DNA from: a virus
IMG/VR virus record: IMGVR_UViG_3300042924_006202
Coordinates: 1-40,521 of that record
Length of the DNA stretch: 40,521 bases
Direction: 5' to 3' (one strand)
Numbering within the stretch: position 1 is the stretch's first letter; the number at the start of each line of letters is the position of its first letter. Shown here in pieces: positions 9,840 to 11,564 of the stretch. The notes below the pieces were generated by a model, which was not told the DNA's origin, did no database searches, and was given only the letters and a program-made list of their open reading frames with translations. The position numbers and the translations under genes are program-made.

Positions 9840-10480
9840 CTGCACAGCTCGCAGCGCACAGCATTGGCGCCGGATTGGTGCCCCTGCGTGTCGAGCCAGT
9901 CGGCTACCTCACGACTCGCGGCGTAGGCGTTGCCGAAGGGCAGCTCTCCGGCGTCCATGGCTGCCTGGGTAGACGGGCCCATTGCGCTCGCCACCCTTTC
10001 CACCAGCCTCTCGGCAGGGTCGGCAGGCGGCGGTGTTGGCGCCGGTGCTAATTCCGATGTTTGGATCCCGTACCGCCGCATCACCGGGCGGATGGCGGCG
10101 AGGGCTTCGGTGCAGCGCAGCTCGGCCCATGTGACTTTTTCAGTGGCAGAGCACAAACGCCCAATTTCCCCCTCGGCAACGTCTGCCAGCGCGGATTCGG
10201 CCTTGATCAGGACAGCTGCAACCGGGGCGGCATCCACTGGGGCGTCTTCTGCCGGGGTATCCGCAATTGAGCGATCACTAGCCCCACGCTCCAGCGCCTC
10301 CAGCCGGCGGCAGAGCGCGGCAATGGTGCTGGAATAGCTGTCCACGAATACTGCAACATCGTTATCACGCTTATCGGCGCGGGCGCACAGGTGCAGCAAA
10401 ACCTGAGCGTCCCGCTGGCCGCTATCTGCGGCCTGTTTGAGCCAAGTCAGGGTTTGGATGGGAAGTGGAAGTAAACTCAT
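9836..10480 (-). CDS. Hypothetical helical protein (214 aa)
   Basis: Starts at ATG 10480 (MSLLPLPIQTLTWLKQAADS). Largely alpha-helical and Ala/Glu-rich. A central region DTPAEDAPVDAAPVAAV looks like a flexible linker, and the C-terminus HQSGANAVRCELCR ends in a Cys pair. The N-terminal block 'LKQAADSGQRDAQVLLHLC' is reminiscent of a single Sel1/TPR-like helix pair, but one repeat is not enough to name it. It lies downstream of the variable-repeat gene with a 46-bp AT-rich gap. Confidence 0.55.
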   Translation of the reverse strand: MSLLPLPIQTLTWLKQAADSGQRDAQVLLHLCARADKRDNDVAVFVDSYSSTIAALCRRLEALERGASDRSIADTPAEDAPVDAAPVAAVLIKAESALADVAEGEIGRLCSATEKVTWAELRCTEALAAIRPVMRRYGIQTSELAPAPTPPPADPAERLVERVASAMGPSTQAAMDAGELPFGNAYAASREVADWLDTQGHQSGANAVRCELCR

Positions 10481-10491
10481 AACCAACGGCC

Positions 10492-10529
10492 AAGTGTAAA
10501 GAATTAAAGGGTAAAAGTGTAAAGAATTA
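10492..10529. repeat. 15-bp direct repeat flanking the 3' end of the variable gene
   Basis: AAGTGTAAAGAATTA occurs at 10492-10506 and again at 10515-10529, 23 bp apart; the second copy includes the stop codon of the FGE-fold gene. The segment is much more AT-rich than its surroundings. It sits right after the variable repeats, where retroelement homing signals would lie, but no function is shown. Confidence 0.6.
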
Positions 10530-11564
10530 GTCCTGGGGGAGGCAACAGACGCGGAAACCGATGACGTTGCCGCGGTTGTCCGGGTGGTTGCCGTCGCGGT
10601 AGGCCGAACGGCAGTCCGCGGGGTGGGTGTGCCACGACCCGCCGCGCAGCAGGCGGCTGGCATCAGAGGCAACAGACGCGGAAACCGATGCTGCCGCTGC
10701 GGACGTCCGGGCGGTTGCCGTCGCGGTAGGCCAAATGGCAGCTCGCGGGGTGGGAGTGCCACGACCCGCCGCGCAGCAGGCGGCGGCTGACGACTCCCCC
10801 AGGCTGTCGCCCTCTGTCCAGGCACTGCCATCCGTCGGCGCCCCTTCATAACTCTCGTGCCATTCATCGAGGCACCACTCCCAGACATTGCCGTGCATGT
10901 CATGCAGGCCCCAGGCGTTATCAGGGAAGCTGGCTACATCGGTGGTCTGCTCGCGATAGATGCCCTTCGAACCCTGGCCGTACGTGTAATTGCCGTCGTA
11001 ATTTGCCACTTCCGTGCTGATCGTGGGCCCAAAATGAAACGGTGTGGTAGTGCCAGCGCGGCAGACGTACTCCCACTGGGCTTCGCTGGGGAGGGTGTAC
11101 TTCTTGCCGGTGCGTTGGCTGAGGCGATGGCAAAATTCCATTGCATCGTGCCAGCTCACCTGCTCCACTGGGCGATTGTCGCCCTTGAAGTGCGAGGGAT
11201 CGGAGACAAGGTGGCGTTCGACCCGTGGCCAACTTGCAACCTCACGCCACTGTGCCTGGGTGATCGGTGTCTTGGCCATCCAGAAGGCGGCCAGTGTTAC
11301 CTCATGCTGGGGGCCTTCAGTTTTTGATCGGTGAGGCTCGTGCTCGGGGGAACCCATCAAGAAGCTGCCAGCAGGAATAAACGCCAGCGGGATTAGGTCT
11401 GCTGTCGGTTTAGCTGCTGCAGTTGCTGGGAGCTGAGGATCGGCGTCAATCCCTGCCAGCTCGGCTAATACGATTGTGGCACTAGCGAATAGGGCTCGGT
11501 CGTTTTGAGAGCGGACAAACTGCACGGCAAACTCAAAGCCGGCGCGGCTGGAATCAATGGTCAT
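10527..11564 (-). CDS. FGE-sulfatase/C-type-lectin-fold protein, DGR-type variable protein (345 aa)
   Basis: ATG 11564 is coupled to the gene upstream. After an 50-residue leader region the protein follows the formylglycine-generating-enzyme fold: LAFIPAGSFLMGS, then ITQAQWREV, NRPVEQVSWHDAMEFCHRL, LPSEAQWEYVCRAG and GLHDMHGNVWEWCLDEW. It ends LLRGGSW...CRSAYRDGNHPDN, then IGFRV. That C-terminal block is the classical variable region of diversity-generating-retroelement targets. Residues about 260-300 instead read as Ala/Thr/Ser-rich nonsense because a second copy of the variable repeat is crossed out of frame. True catalytic FGE function is unlikely; a ligand-binding scaffold is more likely. 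Confidence 0.85.
   Translation of the reverse strand: MTIDSSRAGFEFAVQFVRSQNDRALFASATIVLAELAGIDADPQLPATAAAKPTADLIPLAFIPAGSFLMGSPEHEPHRSKTEGPQHEVTLAAFWMAKTPITQAQWREVASWPRVERHLVSDPSHFKGDNRPVEQVSWHDAMEFCHRLSQRTGKKYTLPSEAQWEYVCRAGTTTPFHFGPTISTEVANYDGNYTYGQGSKGIYREQTTDVASFPDNAWGLHDMHGNVWEWCLDEWHESYEGAPTDGSAWTEGDSLGESSAAACCAAGRGTPTPRAAIWPTATATARTSAAAASVSASVASDASRLLRGGSWHTHPADCRSAYRDGNHPDNRGNVIGFRVCCLPQD
10540..10658 (-). repeat. Variable repeat copy A (in frame)
   Basis: A 119-bp copy encoding RLLRGGSWHTHPADCRSAYR and ending GFRVCCL in the frame of the long FGE-type gene. Against copy B, 127 bp away, the two are identical at both ends. They differ in nine codons, mostly at first and second positions of NNY-type codons (TCC/ACC, AGC/GAC, CGC/CAC, GTC/AAC, GGC/AAC, AGC/GTC). 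This is the footprint expected from adenine mutagenesis of AAC codons in a template. Confidence 0.8.
10667..10785 (-). repeat. Variable repeat copy B (out of frame, own stop)
   Basis: Second copy of the variable repeat. In its own frame it encodes RLLRGGSWHSHPASCHLAYR and then GNRPDVRSGSIGFRVCCL followed by TGA. The body of the gene enters it one frame off, at a run of five G (minus strand, about 10796-10800). One extra G would join the body to copy B and its stop. The present tract leads through B and into copy A. Confidence 0.8.

Follow-up and report, generated by a model that had tools for sequence, protein, structure and literature searches.

Tandem DGR-type variable repeats in alternate frames and a conserved putative frameshift signal in FGE-fold genes of picocyanobacterial phages

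The FGE-fold gene and its two repeats

The window, that is, the whole stretch of DNA analysed, is the 40,521-base virus record IMGVR_UViG_3300042924_006202. It is a virus of freshwater picocyanobacteria and carries terminase, portal, tail-fibre-assembly, helicase and sigma-factor genes. Within a minus-strand gene group, not adjacent to the tail-fibre-assembly genes, lies a gene whose 345-residue product has an FGE-sulfatase domain in its body (profile match to PF03781, 2.9e-50). The initial annotation had placed two variable repeats at the end of an FGE-fold gene, and this description agrees with the profile match. The gene and its repeats comprise the following features:

10527..11564, minus strand: zero-frame CDS, 345 aa; FGE-sulfatase/C-type-lectin body, copy 1 linker and copy 2
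10666..10784, minus strand: variable repeat copy 1, 119 nt (copy B of the initial annotation)
10669..10689, minus strand: invariant A-poor, IMH-like 3' end of copy 1 (ATCGGTTTCCGCGTCTGTTGC)
10663..10665, minus strand: TGA stop of the -1 (LRGGSW) frame, directly behind copy 1
10539..10657, minus strand: variable repeat copy 2, 119 nt (copy A of the initial annotation)
10542..10562, minus strand: identical invariant 3' end of copy 2; TR-VR identity continues through CTCCCCCAG

The two copies are offset by 127 nt and are 89% identical. Their 13 differences fall in nine codons of the LRGGSW frame, in every case at codon position 1 or 2, which bears out the repeat length, offset and codon count described initially and extends the codon-position bias to all 13 sites. 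The end motifs of the repeats are absent from the rest of the window (0-0.01 expected by chance), and a chance origin of the repeats is excluded. The FGE body enters copy 1 one base out of frame, remaining open throughout, and reaches copy 2 in frame; copy 1 has its own stop (TGA, 10665-10663), exactly as first reported. In the zero-frame CDS, copy 1 is thus read out of frame, giving a Ser/Pro/Thr/Ala-rich linker, and copy 2 provides the C-terminal end, ...SRLLRGGSW...IGFRVCCLPQD followed by a stop. Compared with single-copy homologs, the window protein has an insertion of ~40 aa (alignment A1).

The next minus-strand ORF, which starts near 10480 (MSLLPLPIQTLTWLKQAADSGQRDAQ...), encodes a product similar to the N-terminal portion of the FGE protein from single-copy locus L022, hinting that the two window proteins may work together.

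Adenine-restricted variation and its template

A TR was inferred from related VR-like copies (AAC AAC AAC ... AAC CGC AAC AAC AAC) and then sought in cyanobacterial genomes. One of these, G190, contains a TR that agrees with the inferred one at 116 of 120 bases (97%) and is 94% identical to the TR inferred specifically for the window; an RVT_1 match lies ~250 bases away, on the strand of the TR. With the G190 TR as an outside yardstick, in which 25 of 108 sites are TR adenines, 11 of the 13 differences between copies 1 and 2 of the window fall on TR adenines (p = 8e-7). At 15 other loci adenine restriction against the same TR gave p values from 1e-2 to 4e-16, the strongest relative having 20 of its 21 copy differences at TR adenines (p = 4e-16). 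Loci L012 and L015, whose bodies are 94% identical, differ at 22 sites of copy 2, of which 18 are at TR adenines.

In the pooled VR-like copies from related loci, variable columns alternate with constant ones and contain all four bases, A usually being the commonest, and the A-poor 3' end does not vary. Indeed, GGTTTCCGCGTCTG, the A-poor, IMH-like 3' end of the VR, is invariant in all true copies compared. This pattern is the mark that mutagenic retrohoming would be expected to leave. Both copies of the window fit one common AAC-rich TR. A direct derivation of copy 1 from copy 2 as its TR was considered and rejected, given that at four positions only copy 1 has A and at two neither copy does. 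Judged by their sequences, both repeats are DGR variable repeats. The adenine-restricted differences against an independent TR, together with RT and TR in related cyanobacterial genomes, uphold the retro-diversification half of the double system that had been proposed for this gene.

Besides adenine sites, the window copies differ from the G190 TR at 5-7 non-adenine sites, five of them common to both copies; the true TR of the window therefore differs somewhat from that of G190. An exact TR for the window was not found in 42 genomes of the host genus, the best being 94% identical. Two AAC-rich repeats outside the window deserve mention. On a virus contig without an RVT_1 match (L032, 390-670), an AAC-rich TR-like copy lies 162 nt ahead of a mutated copy and is possibly a phage-borne TR. 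In host genome G093 (L169, reverse strand near 1500), an AAC-rich, nearly unmutated repeat follows an FGE body in another frame and may be either a TR or part of a damaged gene.

Where the reverse transcriptase is encoded

RVT_1 was not found in the window or in 30 related virus records (31 in total, up to 277 kb), and a TR search of 21 virus records revealed VRs only; these records are classed as linear and all may be fragments. By contrast, RT and TR cassettes carrying the same repeat are present in host genomes. Cyanobium sp. Cruz CV13-4-11, for instance, has an RT, a TR and two flanking single-copy target genes. Thus, the RT and TR that had been anticipated in the flanking genome or the host were not found in the window or in the related virus records searched and are present on the picocyanobacterial side. 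The host RT has only sub-threshold matches to NCBIfam RT models, adjoins the TR and carries the motif GLPIGNLTSQ. We take this motif, together with the adjacent TR, to identify it as a DGR RT.

Since RVT_1 was not found in the phage records, the window gene is at most a remote target and not a complete DGR, and the host is the likeliest source of RT and TR, acting in trans. An alternative to this trans-acting part is that the phages encode the DGR RT and TR themselves, in parts that were not assembled. Many phage DGRs do carry their own RT, and the linear records may be incomplete; however, neither the 31 virus records for RVT_1 nor the 21 searched for TRs provided such a cassette, and the cassettes with the same repeat sit in host genomes, which makes a phage-borne DGR doubtful.

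Conserved frame layout in related genes

The arrangement seen in the window recurs in related viruses. In all tandem arrays with an FGE body, the copies are spaced by 124, 127 or 130 nt, each 1 mod 3, and the body is in the +1 frame relative to copy 1. In every case the zero frame is open through copy 1, the canonical frame meets a stop no more than three codons past copy 1, and copy 2 is in frame. Single-copy genes, both phage and host, enter their copy in frame. A mechanical count over 86 distinct genes gave 71 in frame, 14 shifted in the same register and one odd host case (L169). The 14 shifted genes consist of 13 tandem arrays and L006, which has one copy. Further cellular loci comprise at least 32 genes in frame and at least one shifted; numbers for host genomes are minimum values throughout. 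No tandem arrays were found with a strict pattern in 299 cellular genomes of the order; one three-copy array (L285) lies on a contig of a podophage that had been binned with genome G334. A sequencing error in the G run of the window was considered as the source of its frame layout and rejected, the layout being conserved in relatives.

Several individual loci show variations. In L006 (reverse strand near 2987) the body is still in the shifted frame relative to its one copy, GGGAAAG is present and the unshifted frame runs on into the following ORF (MTTPKPLSPAAQKL...); its single-copy state may be real or may reflect a collapsed repeat. One phage (L018, 10735-12086), a representative of the GGGAAAG type, has two adjacent FGE genes, each with a tandem frame-shifted array. 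The gp062 gene of Microcystis phage Ma-LMM01 (L199, 1414-2244), annotated as a 'kinase', is of FGE type and ends in LRGGSW...IGFRVVCVG, a VR-like end present as one copy in frame.

A slippery heptamer ahead of copy 1

Inspection of the region ahead of copy 1 revealed the elements of a putative -1 frameshift site:

10810..10815, minus strand: Shine-Dalgarno-like AGAGGG; begins 15 nt ahead of the heptamer
10794..10800, minus strand: slippery heptamer of the zero frame, G_GGG_GAG; relatives have GGGAAAG or AAAAAAG
10767..10785, minus strand: predicted GC-rich stem-loop downstream of the heptamer; window z = -1.0, weak
10663..11564, minus strand: predicted -1 product, ~300 aa (transframe translation); body and ...SLGE/VVSRRLLRGGSW...IGFRVCCL-stop from copy 1

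A heptamer in the zero frame just ahead of copy 1 is found in 14 of 14 shifted genes and in 3 of 71 in-frame genes (Fisher p = 2e-13 for heptamer versus frame state, with genes counted regardless of relatedness and arrays that are not phylogenetically independent). One of the three heptamer-bearing in-frame genes, L198, is itself a shifted array in which the copy 1 motif has been lost. Elsewhere in these genes, the same heptamers occur 9 times in 7,845 other codons. Three types are represented in the shifted genes, G_GGA_AAG, A_AAA_AAG and G_GGG_GAG; the first two, which are canonical and reportedly highly shift-prone in E. coli (PMC5009743), account for 8 of the 14. The window has G_GGG_GAG, the least canonical type, which is non-canonical in the A site; re-pairing of the A-site tRNA would be poor and the efficiency of shifting may be low. 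Its equivalence to the other types is suggested because sister genes use GGGAAAG at this place.

Shine-Dalgarno sequences that stimulate -1 shifts are located 9-14 nt upstream (PMC5009743), and most relatives have GGAGG at the place corresponding to AGAGGG of the window, with a 10-nt spacer. The predicted downstream hairpins of the window and its relatives are only modestly better than shuffled sequences (z from -0.7 to -3.1) and are located in the repeat itself; as independent evidence for a shift they are weak. Translation across the slip gives the transframe peptides SLGK/VLRGGSW, SAKK/VLRGGSW or SLGE/VVSRRLLRGGSW. A -1 slip thus yields the canonical [K/R][V/L]LRGGSW ending, with a junction as in in-frame homologs such as L022 (SLRKLLRGGSW).

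The three-copy array L285 (G334:C150, 2587-3651) lies on a contig with genes for a phage-type RNA polymerase and Gp2.5-like and RuvC-like proteins. Its FGE gene has two zero-frame GGGAAAG heptamers, each preceding a copy with its own stop, and the third copy is in frame; three protein ends would be possible.

Proposed mechanism and alternatives

Collectively, the frame layout and the heptamers point to programmed -1 ribosomal frameshifting, by which one gene quite probably gives rise to two (or three) proteins, each with its own, independently hypermutated end. The gene product would be a C-type-lectin binding protein of FGE fold, diversified at its two tandem variable repeats. Both would be rewritten by the same kind of DGR, one with a template that matches picocyanobacterial TRs and that the host most likely supplies in trans. 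In unshifted ribosomes copy 1 would serve as a neutral linker and copy 2 would complete the lectin fold. A fraction of ribosomes would slip by -1 at the heptamer, read copy 1 canonically and stop right after it. A single mRNA would thereby be translated into two proteins whose binding ends hypermutate independently, and the frameshift efficiency would fix their ratio. From the arrangement we infer that ribosomes do shift, that each of the two proteins folds and binds, and that rewriting is the work of the host RT. For the broader proposition that picocyanobacterial phages use frameshifting to display two (once three) hypermutated lectin ends, borrowing the host retroelement, and that this state evolved or was exchanged more than once, we consider the balance of evidence to be somewhat favourable.

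It could instead be that translation yields the zero-frame protein alone and that copy 1 acts as a DGR landing pad or donor and as a flexible linker, with an incidental heptamer. All arrays are indeed open in the zero frame, and the code guarantees NCN codons there. However, this explanation accounts neither for zero-frame heptamers of three sequence types in 14 of 14 shifted genes nor for the stop that the -1 frame always meets no more than three codons from copy 1. It also leaves unexplained why CGC/AGG Arg codons are retained ahead of LLRGGSW in the -1 frame, and the second heptamer before the second copy of L285. We therefore regard it as unlikely.

Another alternative is a switch at the level of DNA or RNA, with phase variation or transcriptional slippage lengthening or shortening a run of five G by one base. 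Such a run, at 10796-10800 in the window (CCCCC on the plus strand), is also present in five relatives. The initial annotation had proposed that one extra G in this run would switch the protein to the other terminus. This does not hold for the family at large: many other relatives, close sisters included, have GGGAAAG or AAAAAAG at that place, without a long run, and none of the 86 genes combines six G with copy 1 in frame. Because so many relatives carry these heptamers, the slip is probably -1 ribosomal frameshifting and not a G5/G6 DNA indel, and a G-run switch appears very improbable. Of the idea that slippage chooses between two variable ends, the choice itself is supported by the frame layout and by the heptamer conserved in related tandem arrays, whereas the G5/G6 indel as its cause is not.

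Finally, stacking of two strain variants of one repeat by misassembly, combined with a frameshift error, is hardly credible: the contigs are metagenomic, hypervariable repeats assemble poorly and one array (L197) has two exactly identical copies, but at least 13 distinct arrays from many metagenomes share the same layout with different linkers and with spacings that differ yet remain 1 mod 3. In L197 (2250-2504), the two identical first copies are followed by a third, and the unshifted frame would end in the second; the identical copies are possibly an assembly duplication.

Protein ends and fold

In the canonical frame, the AAC codons of the TR mutate to NNC and never to a stop. Read one base out of register, these bases give NCN codons, which encode Ser, Pro, Thr or Ala and likewise never a stop. 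Since only NCN codons arise, the zero-frame linker (~40 residues, rich in small residues) would be harmless whatever the mutation in copy 1; through this NCN reading, AAC-based repeats can hypermutate and still be translated in a second frame free of stops.

The body and the C-terminal strand align to the Treponema denticola variable protein (2y3c) and PvdO (5hha), and FGE is also matched in PDB. The PvdO alignment covers the body as far as residue 251 and resumes at residues 306-340, two segments that are only seven residues apart in PvdO itself. AlphaFold models of both product types are of low confidence (mean pLDDT 55 and 62) and were given no weight as support for folding. One of the two FGE active-site cysteines, as we understand them, falls at a DGR-variable codon, and the window protein is therefore unlikely to be a formylglycine-generating enzyme.

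Evolution of the shifted state

The tree of bodies requires five changes between the shifted and in-frame states, and well-supported branches force at least three of them. Sister genes can differ in heptamer type: L003 has GGGGGAG and L006 GGGAAAG, and the same pair of sequences distinguishes L019 from L012. L022 lies inside the shifted clade and has CTGAGAAAG together with a single in-frame copy. Horizontal exchange of the 3' module could be an alternative source of this tree pattern.

Comparison with known systems

Earlier reports describe phages with more than one VR, CLec domains that carry VRs in tandem, and diversification in trans inside a single genome (PMC11792537, PMC12629997, PMC10907252, PMC7517822). 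The remote variable proteins of cyanobacterial DGRs (Vallota-Eastman et al. 2020, PMC7517822) are, like the window protein, C-type-lectin targets with an A-restricted 3' VR, and their RT and TR are located elsewhere, as for the window gene. Those targets are, however, cellular, and the text mentions neither alternate-frame tandem VRs nor frameshifting. The system of PMC10907252 likewise has several CLec VRs per target, diversified in trans by a DGR at another site of that genome, but there tandem CLec domains occur in one protein of one cell genome, whereas the window has alternative C-termini and involves phage and host. As far as the available parts of the reports go, Faecalibacterium phages (PMC11792537) and gut prophages (PMC12629997) have two VRs per phage, as does the window, but the RT is phage-encoded, the second VR is distal or in another protein and no alternate-frame arrangement is mentioned. 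Roux et al. (PMC8144416) state that their survey would miss remote targets.

Shifted arrays resemble E. coli dnaX, in which a -1 shift takes place at A_AAA_AAG, a heptamer identical to that of L009, and which shares with them an upstream Shine-Dalgarno sequence, a downstream stem-loop (a predicted one in the arrays) and an early stop in the shifted frame (PMC5009743). The dnaX shift truncates the protein, whereas the window-type shift would swap complete C-terminal modules.

Lambda G-T frameshifting is a -1 shift at a G_GGA_AAG type heptamer. Heptamers of this type, found also in relatives of the window, direct -1 shifts in phage g-t tail assembly genes (haloviruses, PMC5009743). The g-t shift adds a chaperone extension within a tail operon, whereas the window-type shift would be a choice between hypervariable ends. 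Among proteins of FGE-type fold like that of the window, 2y3c and PvdO each have a single in-frame C-terminus and lack the 40-50 aa insertion of the window protein; 2y3c is a DGR target.

By title or abstract, literature naming both DGR and frameshifting does not describe a coupling of the two; each is known alone and, as far as titles and abstracts indicate, their combination appears undescribed. If the proposed mechanism is true, one gene would offer several hypermutable binding ends at once, allowing the phage to try out a new end without giving up one that works. Moreover, a short slip signal would set the ratio of the ends, and the virus would exploit the hypermutation machinery of its host for its own gene.

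A multi-copy layout unlike that of the window is present in L026 (9671-9980) and L027 (6710-7172), where 3-4 CLec/VR ends, spaced by 153-156 nt and in a single frame, lie upstream of the FGE body.
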